This document shows, one piece after another, positions 13,552 to 27,674 of a DNA stretch of 37,989 nt (within the stretch, counting starts at the first letter, position 1; each line of letters begins with the position of its first letter). Position numbers and translations under genes: made by a program. The stretch covers positions 1-37,989 of the IMG/VR virus record IMGVR_UViG_3300047352_000231. One strand, 5' to 3'. A model generated the notes under the pieces. That model was not told the DNA's origin. It saw nothing but the letters and a program-made list of their open reading frames with translations, and searched no databases. This DNA comes from a virus.

Positions 13552-13868
13552 TGCTATACAACGCCGAGACATTCGAGCAGACTACATCGGTGACCCGCTT
13601 CGAGCGGGCGCATCGCATTGAGATGAGCAACCCCCTTAACGGCGTACCGTCTGTAGCGTTCATCACCTCATGGGTAGAGCGCGACAACGAGACGGGCGAG
13701 GAGGTGCAGAAGGAGCTACACCGCACTGTGACGGACGTAGTGAACCCTGACGAGACGTTCTCGGTATACGATGCCGAGGGTAACCTTGTCGCTAACATGC
13801 CGTACGGAGACGTAGCGGGCATCCTGTACAACCTCTTCTTCCACGTAGCAACCAAGGCTGATTCATGA
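13551..13868 (+). CDS. hypothetical protein
   Basis: Unrecognised protein of 105 residues, probably a compact beta-rich domain (VAFITSWVERDNETG, then FSVYDAEGNLVANMP). It overlaps the previous gene by one base and the next by four, so all three are likely translated together. It may assist assembly of the large neighbour, which is inference from coupling only. Confidence 0.7.
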   Translation: MLYNAETFEQTTSVTRFERAHRIEMSNPLNGVPSVAFITSWVERDNETGEEVQKELHRTVTDVVNPDETFSVYDAEGNLVANMPYGDVAGILYNLFFHVATKADS

Positions 13869-16840
13869 GCGAGTTAGACAACCCACTGCTGGCGAACGAG
13901 CTCGCTGAGTTCGACCCTAGCGCGATCGACATGGACGCTCTGCGTGCTTCCTTAGATCCACGCTCTCACGACAGCAATGGCGACGGTATACTGGACCACT
14001 GGAACCAAGAGCTAGCCCCTATTCACTCGAACCATCGCGGCTACATAGGCGACGACGGTCAGCTCTACCGCAAGGAGATCACTTACACAGGCGACGGTCA
14101 GCTCCCCGACGATTGGGAGTACGGAGACGAGGCTAACCCTGACGACTGGCAACGCGAGTACACGGACGAGCGTCTGTACTTCTGGACGCCTCCGAAGGAG
14201 CTAGGCAGAGCGCCCGATAGAGAAGAGGATCGTGAGAGGGCTATGGCCGGACCTGACGGATTCGGAGCGGCGGGCCTCTACACCGAAGCGGAGATCAAGG
14301 CCGCGTGGGACGCTGAGGAGGGAATGGGCTACCTCAAGCAACACACCACATGGGACAAGTACTGGAACTTCATTCAGAGATCCACAGAGCTGTTCACTGA
14401 CTCCGAGTACAACGACATGACCGACGGCAACCTGTCCGGTAGTAACTGGCAGGATAGCCCTGAGTACATGGCCCTGCTGGAAGAGACAGGCATTCCTACT
14501 CAGTACATCAACGACGACGGTGACGTGTTCAACTTCAACGGCACGACTTACGTCAAGGACTACAAGTTCGACGACAGTATCTCCGGCAACCAGCTCATGG
14601 GTATCGGCCTCGGCCTCATTGGAGGCTTCGTTGCTGGTCCTATCCTTGCAACTGCGCTCGGCCCTACGCTGGGCGTGGCAGGCGCTAAGGCGGCTTCTTC
14701 AGCTATCGTTAGCATGGCTAGTCAGTACATGCAGAACGGCGATATCGACTTCACGCAGGCTCTTATCTCTGCGGCCACCGCGTACGGCGGCGCTAAGCTA
14801 GGCGATGTAGTGAAGGGGGCCGGAGCGTTCGGCGAGATCGGCGAGAAGATGTCAGAGGTGCAGGACAAGTTCAATGACCTCCTCAGCACAGGCAACAGCA
14901 TAGCAGACGCGGCCATCAAGGCAGGCGGTATGTCCCTGCTGACTCAGCTAGTCACTACTGGCGATGTAGACATCAAGACGGCAGGCATCGCGGCCTTGAT
15001 GGCTGGCGGTACGCAGGCGTTCAGTGAGTGGACCACAAGCATGTACGACGCTGGCGAGACTGTTAGCGACGAGCTGTTGGAAGAGATCACTGTCGAGGCC
15101 AAGCGCGTAGGTAACGACTTGGGCAACGGCATGTACGAGTTAGACGGTGTCGTGTTCAGCGAGACTGGCGGCTACATCGGCAACATGACCGATCTGGATC
15201 TGAACGGTGACGGCACACTGTCGGGCGCAGACTTGCAGAACATCACGACGCCTGACCGCGATCTGGTTGATCCTAACCTTCCGTCCCTGCCGGGGCCGAA
15301 CGAGTACTACGACGCAGACGGCGACGGTAAGTACACCCCCGGAGTGGACAGGGACTTAAGGGCTCCTTCCAGCGTAGGCGGCGCGTACGACCTCTCTAGC
15401 CCAGACTACGTCAAGCAGTTCGATGCGTACTCTGACACGCAGATGATCGACAAGCTAGATCAGATGGGCGTTCAGGTGCTCACGCGAGAAGACGGTAGCT
15501 TGTACATCAACCCCGAGGCTGACATTGACCCAGCCATCAAGGACAACCTGATCGACTACCTTGACGCTCGTAACCAAGAGACGTACTTGACCATGAATCA
15601 AGTCGATCACGGTGGCGGCCTTATTGAGTACAAGGACCAGCCCTACACGGTTGGCATTACTGACGAGGGTCAGCACTACATCATCAAGACGGACGAGCTG
15701 GGTAACTCTAAGTACGTCTCTATCGGGGAAGAAGAATACAACAAGCTTGCTGACTTCCAAGACAACGAGAACTACGACGCTATAGACTCCTACCTGTCAA
15801 AGCATGGGATCGGAAGCACGGGCACGGAGTTCGGGGAATACAGGCCTGACGGTACGATGGTGGGCGATCTGAACGGCGACGGCATTATCTCCTCTGACGA
15901 GATACAATCTGGCTCTTCGACCGTTACGGACGGAGACGGATGGCTCGTTCTGGACGAGGGTGCAGGGGACAATGCAGTCCAAGTAGACGACTTCACGGAC
16001 GCTACGGAGACGCCGGACAATACGCCCGACACTTCGGACGACTCCGCACCTACTGGTGATCCTAACGAGGACACAGACGCCACAGGAGACGGCTCTGGTG
16101 GTGGCGATACGACTTCTACTGGCGGGTCAGCAGACCCCGGCGCAATAGGCGGTGGTGGTAAGCCCGGCGGTGGGGCCGATCCGGGCGGTAGCGGCGGAGA
16201 CATCAACGATCTCCCTCCGCTCTTCCTGCCTCCTCTGTTCCCGCCCGTAACGCCCGGCACTAGCGGCGGCCCCGGTGGTGAAGTGATCGATAGCACTGGA
16301 GATAGCACTACAGATGGCAATGGCACCACCAGCGGCGGTACCACAGGCGGTACCACAGGCGGCGACAACGACGGCGACGGGACAGGCGGGGACGGCGACA
16401 ACGACGGGACTGGTGACGGAACCTCAGACGGCGATAGCTTGGGCGACGGTACTGGCACTGGCGATTCAGGCGATGGCTCAGGAACCAGCGGTAGTGGCGA
16501 CGGTACAGGCGACGGTACTGGCGAGGGCGGCGGTGCTGGAGACGCCGGCGGTACGGGTGGCGGCACTGGCGGAGGCGCTGGTGGTAGCACAGGCGGCGGC
16601 ACAGGCACGACGACTGGACCTACGTACGGTACTTCACCCGGACCCGGAGGCACAGGCACGGGCGCAGGCGGCGGCGGAGACGGCGGCATGTTGTCTGGCG
16701 GTAGCGGAAGCGGCGGAGAAGACTTCAACCCATCATGGGGCGAGATGTTCGCTTACCACACTCCACAAGGATACCAGAAGAAGGCCGTAGCACGGCAGTA
16801 CAAAGACTACATTCAAGAAGCTAAAGGATACCTATCATGA
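13865..16840 (+). CDS. large virion-type protein with EF-hand-like loops and Gly-rich tail
   Basis: Protein of 991 residues. At least four Asp-x-Asn/Asp-Gly-Asp-Gly loops resemble calcium-binding EF-hand or dockerin loops: DSNGDGIL near residue 36, DLNGDGTL near 445, DADGDGKY near 482 and DLNGDGII near 668. Residues about 238-285 form a long Gly/Ala/Leu hydrophobic stretch that could insert in a membrane. Residues about 720-955 are low complexity, mostly Gly, Asp, Ser and Thr, with a short Pro-rich break (LPPLFLPPLFPP). The C-terminal 30 residues are normal and basic. It lies just before tail tube A with overlapping stop and start. It may be an adhesion or ejection protein; no close family is recognised. 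Confidence 0.7.
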   Translation: MSELDNPLLANELAEFDPSAIDMDALRASLDPRSHDSNGDGILDHWNQELAPIHSNHRGYIGDDGQLYRKEITYTGDGQLPDDWEYGDEANPDDWQREYTDERLYFWTPPKELGRAPDREEDRERAMAGPDGFGAAGLYTEAEIKAAWDAEEGMGYLKQHTTWDKYWNFIQRSTELFTDSEYNDMTDGNLSGSNWQDSPEYMALLEETGIPTQYINDDGDVFNFNGTTYVKDYKFDDSISGNQLMGIGLGLIGGFVAGPILATALGPTLGVAGAKAASSAIVSMASQYMQNGDIDFTQALISAATAYGGAKLGDVVKGAGAFGEIGEKMSEVQDKFNDLLSTGNSIADAAIKAGGMSLLTQLVTTGDVDIKTAGIAALMAGGTQAFSEWTTSMYDAGETVSDELLEEITVEAKRVGNDLGNGMYELDGVVFSETGGYIGNMTDLDLNGDGTLSGADLQNITTPDRDLVDPNLPSLPGPNEYYDADGDGKYTPGVDRDLRAPSSVGGAYDLSSPDYVKQFDAYSDTQMIDKLDQMGVQVLTREDGSLYINPEADIDPAIKDNLIDYLDARNQETYLTMNQVDHGGGLIEYKDQPYTVGITDEGQHYIIKTDELGNSKYVSIGEEEYNKLADFQDNENYDAIDSYLSKHGIGSTGTEFGEYRPDGTMVGDLNGDGIISSDEIQSGSSTVTDGDGWLVLDEGAGDNAVQVDDFTDATETPDNTPDTSDDSAPTGDPNEDTDATGDGSGGGDTTSTGGSADPGAIGGGGKPGGGADPGGSGGDINDLPPLFLPPLFPPVTPGTSGGPGGEVIDSTGDSTTDGNGTTSGGTTGGTTGGDNDGDGTGGDGDNDGTGDGTSDGDSLGDGTGTGDSGDGSGTSGSGDGTGDGTGEGGGAGDAGGTGGGTGGGAGGSTGGGTGTTTGPTYGTSPGPGGTGTGAGGGGDGGMLSGGSGSGGEDFNPSWGEMFAYHTPQGYQKKAVARQYKDYIQEAKGYLS

Positions 16841-21843: not shown

Positions 21844-24601
21844 CTTCTTTGCAGGGCTGAACAAGGAGAAGGACGAAGACGACTTCTTCTCCGGCCTCGG
21901 TACAGGCAAGAGCGGCAAGAGCGGTAGCGCAACCGAAGGCGACTTCTGGGCCAACTTGGGCAAGGAGGAAGAGGTTGAGTACAGCACCGGACGGCAGTCT
22001 GTCGTGTCCTTCTTCGAGGGCGCGCTGGGTGTCGGTACGGAAGCTGATGCTTTCTTCCGGTCTATCGGCTCGGACATGTCGTACTCGGATGCGCTGGCTG
22101 AGACGCAGAAGCGTCAGCGTGCCTTCCGTGAGGACAACGACGCACTGGCTACGGCGACTGAGTGGGGCGGCATTGCGGCTGGCTTCTTGGTTCCGGGCGG
22201 TGTGCTCGCTAAGTCAGGGCAGGCGGTCAGCAAGGCACGACAGGTCGGCCTAGCGGCTGGCGAGGGCGCGGCCTTTGGTGCGTTCTACGGCGGCATGACC
22301 GAGGATCTGGAGACAGGTGAGCGCGATCCGCTGACGGGTGCGCTGGTGGGTGGTGCCGTTGGCGGCATCGCTGGCAAGTTCCTGCTGAAGAACCAAGACG
22401 AACTGGCTAAGATCGAAGCGGACCTACGCTCAGTCGAGGGACGCAACACGCACATCTGGGGTGACGACGGCATCGCACAGGGCGACATCGCCAAGGTCAA
22501 GGAGCCTACCAAGACCACGGGCCAAGAGACGTCAGCGCAGGAGAAGCAGAGAGGCCTCGCCACGCTGAAGGAGAAGGCGGCTAGTGCCTTGATGTCCGAG
22601 CGCGGTCTGCTCAAGGAGACAGGCGACAAGCTCGACTGGGCCACGCTAGGTACACGCGAGTGGCTGGAGAAGAACGCAGGCCTACGCGGTGCGCGTCTGG
22701 TGTCGTACGCTGAGCAAGAGATGCGTAGGATGGATCAGAACATCACCGAGATCATGGCACCCTTCGAGAAGGCCGCGCGTGAACAGCTCGACGCTAGTCC
22801 CGCCCTGACCGAGGCGTTCGTCAACATGGGCCGTCAGGGTCCTGTAGGCAAGAAGGGTCCGCAGATACCCAAGAGCTGGGACGAAGCCCGTAAGCTGTTC
22901 TCCGAAGACTCGCCTATGGGGCAAGTGTCCAAGATGTTCGACGAGGTTAATGCGAACGACTTGCCTAACTGGAAGGACAGCTCTCAGCCCATCCCTGACT
23001 ACTTCCCGTCTGCCTCTAAGGGGGCCATGAAGAACGGCGTGCAGGCGAGGGTAGATGACTACCACGATCCTGTCACCACGTTCCGAGAGTACACAGAGGA
23101 CGTCATGAACGCCCGTACGTTGGCCTCTACGTTCTTCAAGCAGGACGCTGACGACGTACTCGCCAAGCTCGAGCCCGCATACGATGGTCAGTCACGTACT
23201 GATGCTCTCATCTCAGCCATTGAGGCCGAGGCGAAGAAGCAGGGCGGGGGCACAGAGACAGCAGGGATCGCGGCGCATAACTTGGCGGCTGGTCTACGAG
23301 CTACGCTCATAGCGTCCAAGCAGGGCGGCGACAAGGTTGGCTCCATGACACGTAAGCTGTCGTCCACGGGCCTGTTGGCTAACTGGTCTAACGCCATGCT
23401 GAACCTGATCGAAGGTGTGACGCTACCGGTCTACGCTAACGGCGTGGTTGCTACGGCACAGTCTGCCATCCCAGCGATAGGCGGCACGATCAACAGCATC
23501 GCACGTCAGGCAGGCAAGAAGAACCCCGTGTTCAAGATGGAGTGGATCAACAACCAGCAGATGGGACTTGATCGACAGTTCATGGGTGAGGTACACGCCG
23601 ACGCCAAGAAGGGTATCGGCAAGCTGGTTGACGGGCTGTCAGAGATCGGCTACAAGGTATCGGGCGTACACACCGTGAACACGATGGGGCAGGAGATCGC
23701 AGGCAACAGCGGCGTGAAGCGCGCTATAAGCGAAGCGAAGAAGGCTGTCAAGTCGGGAGATTACAGCAAGTACGCGAAGCTCAAGGCTAACCGTGGCATG
23801 ACTGAGAAGGAGCTACGGGACTCAGCACGCGGCTTGTCCGAGTACGGGTACAAGAGCAAGTGGGCGAGGGAAGCATACGCTCAGACGCTTGGCCTGCTAC
23901 AGCCGGGGTACGCGTCGTCCATGCCGATGGCGTTCAACAACCACCCGAACGGGCGTATGTTCTACGGTATGCTGTCGTACATGAACAGGCAGTACAACCG
24001 CATCCGCACCGACATCTACCAGAACGCGTACGACGTACAGCGATTCGGTATCAACACGATAGAAGGCAAGCAAGCATACAAGGCGGCACTGCGTAACGCC
24101 ACCATGTACGCCGCCACTATGGGCCTAGCGAACGGTATCTGGGACGACTTCCGTAAGGACGTCATGGACGCTGACGAGCGGGACGAGTGGGGAGAGTACT
24201 TCAGCGGGGACGCACGCATACGCGGCTACGAGATCGCGGACATTAACGATGCCGTCGCGTTCATGGCGAGTACAGCAGGCAACCAGCTAGCGAGCAACAC
24301 CACTAGCGGCCTGTTCAACGTACGTGCCGAGGAGTATGGCGGCCAGATGTTCAACCCGCTTGGTGCGCCTGCGCCGACGATGGCGATCAAGGGTGTCAAC
24401 GCGCTGGCTGATGCGGCCACCGGAGACTTAGAGAAGTTGGGAAGGTTCACGCAGACGTACGTACCCGGAGCCGCGCAGGCTGATAGGGTGACACGCGCCG
24501 TGACGGGTGACCGACTCATGGAAGCGGTAGATAACATAGGACGTCCACAGCAGGGAGGTATGCTGAGCAACGAAGAGTTGTATAAGCTGATAGGGGAATG
24601 A
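21833..24601 (+). CDS. large internal virion/ejection protein
   Basis: Protein of 922 residues in the place of T7 gp16. The N-terminus repeats a short acidic-aromatic motif: DDFFAGL (3-9), DDFFSGL (16-22) and DFWANL (37-42). Two Gly-rich hydrophobic segments (about residues 115-130 and 162-180, with a Gly-zipper ALVGGAVGGIAG) could insert in a membrane, as expected for a protein that forms a channel for DNA entry. The rest is helical. I see no lytic transglycosylase motif of the type found in T7 gp16, so the cell-wall step may be done elsewhere. It overlaps the holin-like gene as ATGA. Confidence 0.7.
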   Translation: MADDFFAGLNKEKDEDDFFSGLGTGKSGKSGSATEGDFWANLGKEEEVEYSTGRQSVVSFFEGALGVGTEADAFFRSIGSDMSYSDALAETQKRQRAFREDNDALATATEWGGIAAGFLVPGGVLAKSGQAVSKARQVGLAAGEGAAFGAFYGGMTEDLETGERDPLTGALVGGAVGGIAGKFLLKNQDELAKIEADLRSVEGRNTHIWGDDGIAQGDIAKVKEPTKTTGQETSAQEKQRGLATLKEKAASALMSERGLLKETGDKLDWATLGTREWLEKNAGLRGARLVSYAEQEMRRMDQNITEIMAPFEKAAREQLDASPALTEAFVNMGRQGPVGKKGPQIPKSWDEARKLFSEDSPMGQVSKMFDEVNANDLPNWKDSSQPIPDYFPSASKGAMKNGVQARVDDYHDPVTTFREYTEDVMNARTLASTFFKQDADDVLAKLEPAYDGQSRTDALISAIEAEAKKQGGGTETAGIAAHNLAAGLRATLIASKQGGDKVGSMTRKLSSTGLLANWSNAMLNLIEGVTLPVYANGVVATAQSAIPAIGGTINSIARQAGKKNPVFKMEWINNQQMGLDRQFMGEVHADAKKGIGKLVDGLSEIGYKVSGVHTVNTMGQEIAGNSGVKRAISEAKKAVKSGDYSKYAKLKANRGMTEKELRDSARGLSEYGYKSKWAREAYAQTLGLLQPGYASSMPMAFNNHPNGRMFYGMLSYMNRQYNRIRTDIYQNAYDVQRFGINTIEGKQAYKAALRNATMYAATMGLANGIWDDFRKDVMDADERDEWGEYFSGDARIRGYEIADINDAVAFMASTAGNQLASNTTSGLFNVRAEEYGGQMFNPLGAPAPTMAIKGVNALADAATGDLEKLGRFTQTYVPGAAQADRVTRAVTGDRLMEAVDNIGRPQQGGMLSNEELYKLIGE

Positions 24602-24984
24602 ACGAAGCGGAGATAACACGGCGGTTAAGCCACGTCGAGAAGGAACTCGCGACGCACTCTACAGTGCTGGCGGCTAACGCCGAGTCAATGAAGAGCCTGA
24701 TGGAGCGGAGCGACGAACGCCTCGACTACATCAAGGAGAGGTTCGACGAGGGCGCAGGGAGGTTCGACAGGCTAGAGCATATCATAGCCGGTAACATGAT
24801 AGAGATACTGGCGGCACGACGGCGTATCATCGGGGCCGCGACGACCGTGTTCTGTACCGTCCTCACTGCCGCGTGGTTCGTGATCGTGCTACCCATGCAG
24901 GAACAGCTAGCGTACTTAGATAGGAGATTGATGGATGCTGAGAAGCGTATTGCTGTGCATCTGCATGACGACGGTCCTGCCTAG
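24598..24984 (+). CDS. holin-like protein with one membrane segment
   Basis: Protein of 128 residues. Residues 1-70 are a charged coiled coil, 77-99 (from IIGAAT to VLPM) form a single membrane helix, and the rest is a short charged tail. The layout and the position before a spanin-like lipoprotein suggest a pinholin or holin that lets the endolysin (1858-2352) reach the wall. An inner-membrane spanin subunit is an alternative, because its C-terminal part has the coiled-coil look and the next gene starts inside it. The start overlaps the 922-residue gene as ATGA. Confidence 0.6.
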   Translation: MNEAEITRRLSHVEKELATHSTVLAANAESMKSLMERSDERLDYIKERFDEGAGRFDRLEHIIAGNMIEILAARRRIIGAATTVFCTVLTAAWFVIVLPMQEQLAYLDRRLMDAEKRIAVHLHDDGPA

Positions 24985-25306
24985 CTGTAGTACTATCGCC
25001 CCGCTAGCCAAGGATGTGCTCCTAGGAGGCGCTGAGAGGGGCATAGAGGCACGTGCTAACGTAGGACAGGCCAAGGTAGAGGGTGACGATGCCGTCGCTC
25101 AGAACGCGAATACGGCCGTCTCAGTGGATGCAGGAAGTAGGCAGGACTACGGGGCTGTAGATACGGTTGTCAATGAGAGTGGCTTACCGTTCCACGTGTT
25201 GTTGTTGTTAGTCCTGCTGGCGGGGTGGGCTATACCTAGTCCCGAAGAGATGGGACATGGAATCGTTCGTCTGATACGCGGGATACGTTCCACCGGACAC
25301 GGTTAA
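24935..25306 (+). CDS. probable unimolecular spanin (lipoprotein with C-terminal TM)
   Basis: Protein of 123 residues with an N-terminal signal and lipobox ending at Cys18 (VLPSC), a periplasm-sized middle (19-83) with a VDTVVNE stretch, and a C-terminal membrane segment (84-100, LPFHVLLLLVLLAGWAI) followed by a short basic tail. A lipid anchor for the outer membrane plus a C-terminal inner-membrane helix is the u-spanin layout known from T1 gp11; spanins fuse the two membranes at lysis. It starts inside the holin-like gene in another frame, with GGAG upstream, and its last 71 bases overlap the 3' end of the opposing metalloprotease gene. Confidence 0.65.
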   Translation: MLRSVLLCICMTTVLPSCSTIAPLAKDVLLGGAERGIEARANVGQAKVEGDDAVAQNANTAVSVDAGSRQDYGAVDTVVNESGLPFHVLLLLVLLAGWAIPSPEEMGHGIVRLIRGIRSTGHG

Positions 25307-27188
25307 GAGCGTACGCCTCGTCTGTCCCTTGAGGACCACGATAGCCTCGGGCGTCACCGAACGCGCCGGGGCTTTCTTTCGCCTGCGAACACGACAGCTT
25401 GGAGTTGCTCCAGCCTAGTCGCTTGTTGCCGTAGGACATGACGCTCTGCACGTTGGCGCAGATGCCTAGCCGTCCATTAGACCAGCCCTGTCCGAAGTCT
25501 AGGAAGAAGCTCCCTCCGCCTGCGGGCAGGCCGCCCCAGATGCCGTGACCTAAGCCCATGACGTGGCCCAGCTCGTGCAATACGGTGGTCCATGTGCCGC
25601 CTTGAAGCGCGGGCGGCTCTTGTCCGGGCACGAAGGACCTCTGTAGGTACGCCTCGCCACCTGTCGGGCCGGGGCACCAGCCGACTACGATGTCTGCCTT
25701 GCCTCGGTAGAGCTGGCGTGGTACTTGATCGACGCCAAAGCATGACCCAGCCCACATAGCGGGGCCAGCAGAGAAGTGTATGCGGACGTCGCTGTTGAGG
25801 TTGACGCGGTTCATCTCATCTAGCCATGACTGGAACTCGGCAAGTATCTCGGGGTCCGTGATCGTCTCCCCCTGTACGCCTCCGTTGCGTGCTAGGCCTA
25901 GCGTGATGGTGGCAATGCGGGGGTCATCCTCGCCTGCCCACGTGAGCGACTGCGCCACGGTGTTGTAGGCGTGCCCGTAGCAATCGACAGCGGTATATCC
26001 TCGTATCTCCTTGTCGCATGTCTGCTCCTCGTACTGCGCTGGCTCCTTGGCGAACTCGTCATGGATCAGCGCCACGTCGTACCGGACGCGGTTGAAGGCG
26101 TAGGCAGTGGAGCTGACTTCCAGCGATCCGGCAGGCTCGTCTGCGTACTGGTCGTTGAAGCCCATCTCTCCGCACGTCATCTTGTGGTTCGTGAAGAACT
26201 TAGTGTTGGTAGCGCCGCCGTACTGCATGTAGTCGGAGCGCGCACCGCACCACTGGCTACCGTGTGCGAATGACAGGAACGTAGCGCCGTAGCCTTCGTT
26301 CTGTTGCTGGTCGCCATGCCCCAAGCCTATGGTGTGGCCTAGTTCATGTAGGAAGGACCAAGCCCCGCATCCGAACAGAGGACGCAGGGGTGACACGCGG
26401 TCGCGGAACGTGGTGGTCTTGCCCGCGTAGCCACAGATTCCGGCAGGCAGTGCGCCCATGATAGCGAGGACGTCAGACTCAACGAGGTAGTCCTCGGGTA
26501 GCTTCTGCGGGTCGAACGATCCGTTAGGGTTGGGAGTACCTATCACCTGTACCAGCTTGAGCTTGACGAATATGCCACTACGCTCGAACTGTTCGTTCGC
26601 CCATGCAATCATGCTCTCCGCTTCGTCTGTCAGGCGGGCGTCAGGCTCTACTACGTAGTCCTCTCCCTTAGCTCTTCCGACGTACACGACTTCCCACTCT
26701 ACGACGCGCTCATCGTCCTCGCCGTAGTAGATGTAGAAGTCACTACCCGACCCTTGCTGTAGGCCTTGGCAGTCGATGACCGTCAGCCCGTCTCGTGTGC
26801 CTTCGCATACGGGCATGTCCTCGAAGCGGAGCATGTACTCCTCGTCGTTGATGAGGATAGGATGATCCCCAAGCTGTCCGTTACTGAACACCTCAATGCC
26901 CTCGGGCGTCTCGAAGTAGTACCCCTCGGGTAGCTCTACATCGACAGGCTGAGGGATGTCATCGATCGTGTACGTGACGTTGATGACGGCAGGCTCCCAG
27001 TAGTCGGCCGTGCTGGATACCACCTCGACGTCGAACACCACGACAGGCTCAGGTGTAGGCTGTGGCGTGGGCTCAGGCGTGGGTGTAGGGGTGGGCGTCG
27101 GGGACGGGGAAGGCTGGGAGGAGGAACCCCCGCCGCCGCACGACGCCGTGACTGCTAACAAGACGGCCAGCAGTAGATACTTATACAT
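25236..27188 (-). CDS. lipoprotein with tandem metzincin metalloprotease domains
   Basis: Protein of 650 residues. Residues 1-16 form a signal ending in a lipobox-like VTASC (Cys17), then Gly/Ser, then a Pro-Thr linker to about residue 48. Gly after the Cys favours the outer membrane. Two zinc-binding motifs follow: HELGHTIGLGHG (281-292) and HELGHVMGLGHG (538-549), each the full HExxHxxGxxH of metzincins. Each has a plausible Met-turn (YMQYG near 320; VMSYG near 583) and a shared closing segment (AYAFNRVRYDV, AYALNRVRWNV), so the enzyme arose by tandem duplication. Both sites look intact. It is last in the leftward block, its start overlapping the previous stop by eight bases, so it should be made before lysis. 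Likely roles are trimming host surface receptors or blocking superinfection (inference). Confidence 0.85.
   Translation of the reverse strand: MYKYLLLAVLLAVTASCGGGGSSSQPSPSPTPTPTPTPEPTPQPTPEPVVVFDVEVVSSTADYWEPAVINVTYTIDDIPQPVDVELPEGYYFETPEGIEVFSNGQLGDHPILINDEEYMLRFEDMPVCEGTRDGLTVIDCQGLQQGSGSDFYIYYGEDDERVVEWEVVYVGRAKGEDYVVEPDARLTDEAESMIAWANEQFERSGIFVKLKLVQVIGTPNPNGSFDPQKLPEDYLVESDVLAIMGALPAGICGYAGKTTTFRDRVSPLRPLFGCGAWSFLHELGHTIGLGHGDQQQNEGYGATFLSFAHGSQWCGARSDYMQYGGATNTKFFTNHKMTCGEMGFNDQYADEPAGSLEVSSTAYAFNRVRYDVALIHDEFAKEPAQYEEQTCDKEIRGYTAVDCYGHAYNTVAQSLTWAGEDDPRIATITLGLARNGGVQGETITDPEILAEFQSWLDEMNRVNLNSDVRIHFSAGPAMWAGSCFGVDQVPRQLYRGKADIVVGWCPGPTGGEAYLQRSFVPGQEPPALQGGTWTTVLHELGHVMGLGHGIWGGLPAGGGSFFLDFGQGWSNGRLGICANVQSVMSYGNKRLGWSNSKLSCSQAKESPGAFGDARGYRGPQGTDEAYALNRVRWNVSRVSDERFHVPSLRD
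25343..25379 (+). terminator. rho-independent terminator of the rightward block
   Basis: AGCCTCGGGCG (25343-25353) pairs with CGCGCCGGGGCT (25362-25373), 11 pairs with one bulge and one G-T pair, closing an eight-base loop; TTTCTTT (25373-25379) follows. It lies 37 bases after the spanin stop and inside the C-terminal coding region of the leftward metalloprotease gene. Confidence 0.7.
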
Positions 27189-27354
27189 CGTCTTGCTCCT
27201 TGTCGGTGACGATAGCCTCGTATGCCTGCTCCAATGCGAACGTGGCGAGGCTTAGGGCCATGCGATACCGACGCATGACGGAGTGTTGGTAGGTAGCATA
27301 CCCGCCTAGCATGAACACGGCGGCTACTAGTGTTGCTTCTGTTCCTGTAATCAT
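27181..27354 (-). CDS. 57-residue membrane miniprotein
   Basis: Protein of 57 residues with a hydrophobic N-terminal segment (residues 8-20, LVAAVFMLGGYAT) likely to cross the inner membrane, then a basic and an acidic half-helix. The ATG overlaps the previous stop as ATGA and its stop lies beyond the start of the metalloprotease gene, so it is translated together with that gene. Role unknown. Confidence 0.65.
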   Translation of the reverse strand: MITGTEATLVAAVFMLGGYATYQHSVMRRYRMALSLATFALEQAYEAIVTDKEQDDV

Positions 27355-27674
27355 CGCTCAAGCTCCTCTGGGTAGTACTTCAGTTGGTGTAGCATCTGCA
27401 AGAGATTGCACATCGCGTGGCCTAGGTGAGATCGTCCAGACTCGGGGTCCAGATCCTCGCCTGCTTGCCATGCGCTCATGTGTCGCATCAGGCAGGCGTA
27501 GCTCACCGTCCAGTGGGTGGGCCTCTTCCAGTTGTCTCGCTCGTACTTACTTGCCCCGTACTCCAGTACCCGTGCCGCCTCTTCGAGAAGCTCCATAGGC
27601 ACGAGGGAGTAGTCGGGCTTGCCTTCGTTGTAGCGCAGGCTACGATCAGTGGATGCTGGTTGGCTCATCGTCAT
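27351..27674 (-). CDS. dATP/dGTP diphosphohydrolase-like protein
   Basis: Protein of 107 residues with the pattern I associate with the phage family named dATP/dGTP diphosphohydrolase N-terminal domain: LRYNEGKPDYSLVP (about 13-26), VLEYGASKYERDNW (36-49), LMRHMSAWQAGEDLDPESG (62-80) and LGHAMCNLL (83-91). The conserved Arg, Lys, Glu and His residues of these motifs are all present. It could hydrolyse dNTPs to adjust the pool during replication; a catalytic role has not been shown for every member. GAGG sits nine bases before an alternative ATG at 27668, which may be the true start. It overlaps both neighbours. Confidence 0.65.
   Translation of the reverse strand: MTMSQPASTDRSLRYNEGKPDYSLVPMELLEEAARVLEYGASKYERDNWKRPTHWTVSYACLMRHMSAWQAGEDLDPESGRSHLGHAMCNLLQMLHQLKYYPEELER

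Follow-up and report, generated by a model that had tools for sequence, protein, structure and literature searches.

The window, by which we mean the whole 37,989-nucleotide stretch of viral DNA analysed here, encodes a 650-residue protein that is probably exported and lipid-anchored and that carries two intact metzincin domains. The family to which it belongs, made up of exported proteases of uncultivated phages, is large and has hardly been described. The gene encodes a new viral version of a known kind of enzyme, the metzincin. We tentatively favour, with a confidence somewhat short of even, a reading in which a CpaA-like protease with two active sites would be exported and tethered before lysis and would trim variable (glyco)proteins in the envelope or on the surface of the infected cell.

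The features of the gene and its neighbours are collected in Table 1. An earlier note made from the letters alone had described a signal with a lipobox, a Pro-Thr linker, two HExxHxxGxxH motifs, two plausible Met-turns and a shared closing segment, and all of these were found again (the ranges given there for the motifs, 281-292 and 538-549, include the Gly that follows each). The ORF has an ATG start. Its lipobox fits the usual pattern, though with Thr at position -3, and is kept in a close relative, L001; lipidation at this cysteine is predicted. Twelve further cysteines fit an oxidising compartment. The closing segment has the consensus AYAxNRVRxxVxxxxDE; in the models it is the metzincin fold's C-terminal helix in each of the two halves, which are joined by a short interdomain linker (residues 383-424) and are homologous to each other (28% identity, E 2e-13, BLASTP). 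Chance does not produce such motifs readily, as none of 20,000 shuffles of the 650-aa protein gave even one of the HExxHxxGxxH type.

Table 1. The tandem metzincin gene and its neighbours in the window (residues are those of the 650-aa protein).
Feature	Position	Strand	Basis
Tandem metzincin lipoprotein gene, 650 aa	25236..27188	-	ORF listing; 79% identical homologue in L001
Signal peptide and lipobox, residues 1-17, LLAVTAS-C17, then GGGGSSSQ	27138..27188	-	sequence; lipobox regular expression over family
Pro/Thr-rich linker, residues about 26-48	27045..27113	-	sequence
N-terminal all-beta domain, residues 49-160, family-conserved	26709..27044	-	AlphaFold model, family alignment, CpaA alignment
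Type A metzincin catalytic domain, residues 161-382	26043..26708	-	pLDDT 87.4, pTM 0.86; PDB 6o38 CpaA E 2.4e-8
Zinc-binding motif A, HELGHTIGLGH, residues 281-291	26316..26348	-	invariant in 37 aligned family rows
Met-turn A, SDYMQY (M321)	26220..26237	-	Met and Tyr invariant in family alignment
Closing helix A, AYAFNRVRYDVALIHDE, residues 362-378	26055..26105	-	helix in model; N, R, R invariant
Type B metzincin catalytic domain, residues 425-650	25239..25916	-	pLDDT 84.1, pTM 0.86; PDB 6o38 CpaA E 1.7e-7
Zinc-binding motif B, HELGHVMGLGH, residues 538-548	25545..25577	-	intact in 5/5 type B domains
Met-turn B, QSVMSY (M584)	25431..25448	-	SVMSY intact in 5/5 type B domains
Closing helix B, AYALNRVRWNVSRVSDE, residues 625-641	25266..25316	-	helix in model
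57-aa single-TM ORF	27181..27354	-	sequence; counterparts in L001 and L186
dATP/dGTP diphosphohydrolase-type gene, upstream, same operon	27351..27674	-	PF18909 E 2.8e-30
Convergent small lipoprotein, C-terminal TM, spanin-like shape	24935..25306	+	matches only a family of unknown function

The earlier note had proposed structure prediction and a structure-based search as a check on the fold, and these gave a metzincin fold for both halves. AlphaFold, given 37 sequences of the family, returned a confident model of each half (Table 1). In both cases CpaA of Acinetobacter (6o38) is the top PDB match, with ADAM and snake-venom metalloproteases next in rank; TM-scores against CpaA reach only 0.46–0.51 on the query (A 0.46, B about 0.5). 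By sequence, too, CpaA ranked first with the family profile (E 5.9e-6 over 90 positions), in an alignment that includes two cysteines flanking the active-site region. Pfam reprolysin models score above their cut-offs on the 650-aa protein; the NCBIfam CpaA model gave 18.5 bits against a cut-off of 750, and a fold search of BFVD returned no match at E < 0.001. Both domains thus have a predicted metzincin fold, the zinc motif and the Met-turn, and zinc binding and proteolysis are predicted.

CpaA (MEROPS M72) is an O-glycoprotease secreted by the type II secretion system (T2SS), with Ig-like domains preceding its metzincin domain (PMC7542363). The likeness to the window protein lies in a beta domain followed by an adamalysin-like metzincin domain with a Cys-flanked active site. 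In CpaA, by contrast, four Ig-like repeats precede a single catalytic domain, there is a membrane chaperone (CpaB) and secretion is in soluble form (PMC7542363). The window protein has one beta domain and two catalytic domains and lacks four tandem Ig-like repeats, and the ORF coupled upstream of its gene encodes only 57 aa with one TM segment. Moreover, CpaA is a bacterial gene, and identity is about 15%. As glycoproteases are indistinguishable from other proteases by sequence (PMC7542363), the resemblance makes glycoprotein substrates plausible rather than demonstrated. The strongest NCBIfam match was to Mep72, a biofilm-associated metzincin (NF052434), but it covers the active-site stretch only (E 5e-9) and with 35 bits against a cut-off of 645 the window protein is not a member. 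StcE, TagA and SslE are likewise exported metalloproteases that act on surface glycoproteins, SslE being a lipoprotein, but they belong to other peptidase families and match weakly (M66 at E 0.016; SslE to the linker only).

In single-sequence scans, the sole relative was L001, with both motifs intact, and the genome contigs gave no match; alignment-based scans were required to detect the family beyond it. These found relatives encoded on at least 87 viral contigs, and not a single family match in 50,697 phage records; 73 distinct sequences of the family were collected. Among the matches listed for genome contigs, one was clear (L034, a contig from a MAG) and one was weak, and full-length matches were confined to one of 369 gammaproteobacterial genomes, namely that of L034 itself, a contig that may be viral and have ended up in a bacterial bin. 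The rarity in cells rests mainly on these 369 genomes of one class, and as pattern-based scans miss relatives, all absences hold for the collections and the sensitivity used. IMG/VR contigs are often fragments, several of them near-copies of one another, and the gene calls at the loci compared are simple ORF calls.

Most family members have a single catalytic domain, and nearly all complete ones begin with a hydrophobic signal. A lipobox is present in some, and long P/T/E-rich linkers are restricted to these; the many relatives with plain signal peptides indicate that tethering is not essential to the family. Three members (L004, L005, L099) carry one or more copies of a Cys-containing repeat, GCSKxYPGVxWFxYxDGxGG...CG, before the protease domain, perhaps a binding module. 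Two small proteins encoded next to metzincin genes have the look of mini-zincins and no Pfam match: a 126-aa lipoprotein with HEIIHCLYGKWH (L118, 723-1103) and a 107-aa protein with HEYSHCMGWQH (L134, 7367-7690).

The two catalytic domains are old paralogues. A tree built from the catalytic domains separates type A (window d1, L001 d1, L118 g1, L007 d2, L034 g2) from type B (window d2, L001 d2, L118 g2, L007 d1, L034 g1) at 98/98 support, and each type B domain found, in five instances, is accompanied by a type A domain. The pair is fused as A-B in the window and in L001 and as B-A in L007; L034 has adjacent separate genes, B then A, and in L118 a small lipoprotein ORF lies between A and B. 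An A gene alone is visible in L184, but at the end of the contig. That the fused genes occur in opposite orders suggests that an older pair was fused twice, independently, with the caution that there are only five instances and that branches in the tree are long. We had also considered a recent duplication within the window phage, which is rejected as both domains are common to other phages. An IscU/NifU-like gene lies beside the B and A metzincins in L034 (10257-10652) and L007 (6967-7350), with ClpX or ClpP nearby.

Tandem enzymes often retain one inactive copy, and by this general rule one domain might still be a working enzyme while the other has become a regulatory or binding module. We consider this very unlikely here, as the zinc motifs, with their His and Glu residues, and the Met-turn residues are retained in all 10 domains of the five A/B pairs, and as dN/dS between the window and L001 is similar for the two catalytic domains (0.18 and 0.20), indicating purifying selection of similar strength. 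Since the domains are distinct paralogues of long standing that are kept together, fused or not, both sites are probably used, and on different substrates.

The gene had been placed at the end of a leftward replication block, and the arrangement indeed proved to be a tightly coupled operon, where the stop of the pyrophosphohydrolase gene overlaps the start of the 57-aa ORF by 4 nt (ATGA), the end of the latter overlaps the metzincin start by 8 nt, suggestive of translational coupling, and AAGGAG lies 7 nt upstream of the metzincin ATG. The block also contains helicase-primase, DNA polymerase, exonuclease, HNH and metallophosphoesterase genes, and because of its position at the end of this operon the metzincin should be made together with replication proteins, before lysis. 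In the window, a scan for promoters and terminators gave nothing above chance, PADLOC reported no defence-system match and no tRNA genes were found. The DNA polymerase is nearest to those of Pelagibacter and Roseobacter phages (38–40% identity), yet G+C is 53–60%. A 991-aa protein (13865-16840) with no family match and no relative in the loci compared is possibly a tail or fibre protein. Two small genes at 24598-25306, one encoding a single-TM protein and the other a lipobox and a C-terminal TM, have the shape of a holin and a unimolecular spanin, and both match only families of unknown function. The second overlaps the metzincin 3' end by 71 nt; it is a neighbour but not necessarily a partner.

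Lysis proteins often show lipobox-plus-TM or one-TM shapes, and these convergent neighbours thus raise the possibility that the protease assists lysis or release by weakening the envelope. It would cut proteins of the periplasm or outer membrane, or a partner lipoprotein, and lysis would be more complete, in the way proposed for the phage-derived Mtz-Tim pair of Listeria. The small lipoprotein gene between the two protease genes of L118 would agree with this, as would a precedent from Listeria, where Mtz, a secreted metzincin of phage origin, together with a lipoprotein raises sensitivity to phage lysins (PMC8235301). Like the window protein, Mtz is a phage-derived metzincin placed at the envelope, and a lipoprotein takes part in its action; the Mtz-Tim pair differs in its Gram-positive setting and in that the protease is separate from an inhibitor-like lipoprotein, a comparison made by description only (PMC8235301). 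Nevertheless, we hold a role in lysis to be unlikely, as the metzincin belongs to the replication operon on the strand opposite to the convergent genes, most loci examined have no lipoprotein partner adjoining the gene, and a constant lysis step would not need strong swapping and divergence of the protease.

Such swapping is seen in the relatives of the window phage. Two contigs, L110 and L186, share its gene order but carry different protease architectures: identities to the window are 94% and 87% for the pyrophosphohydrolase and 71% and 66% for the convergent small lipoprotein, but 32% and 29% for the protease. Against L001, the protease has a dN of 0.166 vs 0.011 for the DNA polymerase and a dS of 0.88 vs 0.21, with a dN/dS of about 0.19 that indicates purifying selection. 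Judged from these sequences, the difference looks like allelic replacement combined with faster change.

Elsewhere the metzincin gene lies after ribonucleotide reductase, before a tail spike or before terminase; the immediate upstream position to terminase in the L111/L134/L160 group means that co-expression with replication genes is not universal. In an NrdAB-carrying group, which gene content alone marks as probable T4-like myoviruses, the gene immediately after the protease encodes a spike that has Mtd_N and pectate-lyase-like domains; this holds at 38 loci, of which about 12 are distinct. Pairwise identities in this group have medians of 55% (protease) and 47% (spike), compared with 84%, 88% and 93% for the upstream nuclease, NrdA and NrdB, respectively. 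Clean swaps of the protease or of the spike alone occur, and in one pair the flanks and spike are 98–100% identical while the proteases share 48%. In another phage (L103, 11009-16747), the metzincin neighbourhood holds curli genes (CsgG, curlin repeats) and genes for FecR- and CHASE2-like proteins; pelagiphages are known to carry curli clusters, in two papers that make no mention of peptidases or proteases (PMC7029224, PMC9599517).

The spike neighbourhood is pertinent to two further readings. One is a virion-associated protease that cuts a surface layer during entry, which we regard as extremely unlikely, since a secretory signal would export the protein from the cytoplasm, where virions assemble, and since the window gene sits in a replication operon. 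The other is an enzyme that destroys the receptor of its own phage, as a catalytic analogue of Llp of T5, whose gene adjoins the receptor-binding gene much as protease and spike genes adjoin each other in the NrdAB group (PMC4728585). Llp of T5 and BF23 is likewise a phage lipoprotein made during infection; it acts in superinfection exclusion and so offers a precedent for protection of the cell surface by such a protein, and unrelated versions fill the same place in related phages, as with the proteases in this study; however, Llp blocks the receptor by binding, while the window protein is a predicted enzyme of 650 aa (PMC4728585). The identities of protease and spike in the NrdAB group are uncorrelated (Spearman 0.03 over 66 pairs) and each is swapped without the other, which weakens own-receptor destruction and makes it quite unlikely. 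This comparison covers the NrdAB group only, and the final receptor binder may be a protein other than the spike, which could be a depolymerase. The earlier proposal that the enzyme cuts receptors and excludes other phages is retained as a possibility, but the narrower idea, in which protease and spike of one phage are matched to each other, found no support in this group.

The note had also placed the protein on the outer face of the host. The sequence at the lipobox cysteine, CGGGGSSS, resembles the Gly/Ser sorting signals of T2SS surface lipoproteins, for which a Gly/Ser or Asn/Asp motif directly after the Cys is required but not sufficient in the T2SS/GspN pathway; GGG after the lipid Cys leads to inner-membrane retention in Pseudomonas (PMC12802150). 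The motif would thus fit T2SS surface display but could also mean retention in the inner membrane.

An exported, often tethered and fast-swapping protease suggests substrates that are variable and extracellular or in the envelope. Digestion of extracellular protein to feed the infected cell would be an auxiliary-metabolism role in keeping with the frequent occurrence of the gene in phages with nucleotide-synthesis genes such as ribonucleotide reductase. We assign it little probability, as bulk digestion needs neither a membrane tether nor diverse swapped versions, and no transporters or other peptidases lie alongside the gene. In the surface-trimming reading that we favour, the lipoprotein with its two CpaA-like adamalysin-type domains would be exported by Sec, having been synthesised alongside the replication genes ahead of lysis; it would be lipidated at C17, and its flexible Pro/Thr linker would hold the enzyme off the membrane. 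Both active sites would be used, each on different substrates, in trimming variable (glyco)proteins of the infected cell's envelope or surface before lysis. The most likely benefit would be that adsorption of other phages is stopped and that progeny escape entrapment in debris and matrix; exclusion of other phages and release from cell debris are both possible.

Phage exclusion lipoproteins of the best-known kind bind receptors and so block them. A wider proposal, which we consider rather doubtful as a whole, is that exported, virus-specific glycoprotease-like metzincins are an interchangeable surface-editing tool of uncultivated phages; that in certain lineages the A and B paralogues, each specialised for other substrates, became a fixed pair and were fused independently in both orders into an enzyme of dual specificity tethered to the infected cell; and that they would exclude rivals enzymatically. 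The family is absent from curated phage records, and we found no description of it in the open-access literature searched. The paired A and B domains make the hypothesis of two substrates directly testable, and new glycoproteases would also be useful as laboratory tools. Phage metzincins probably reshape the surface of the infected cell before it bursts, and a family of exported proteases distributed over several phage types would represent a new, enzymatic way to rework that surface.
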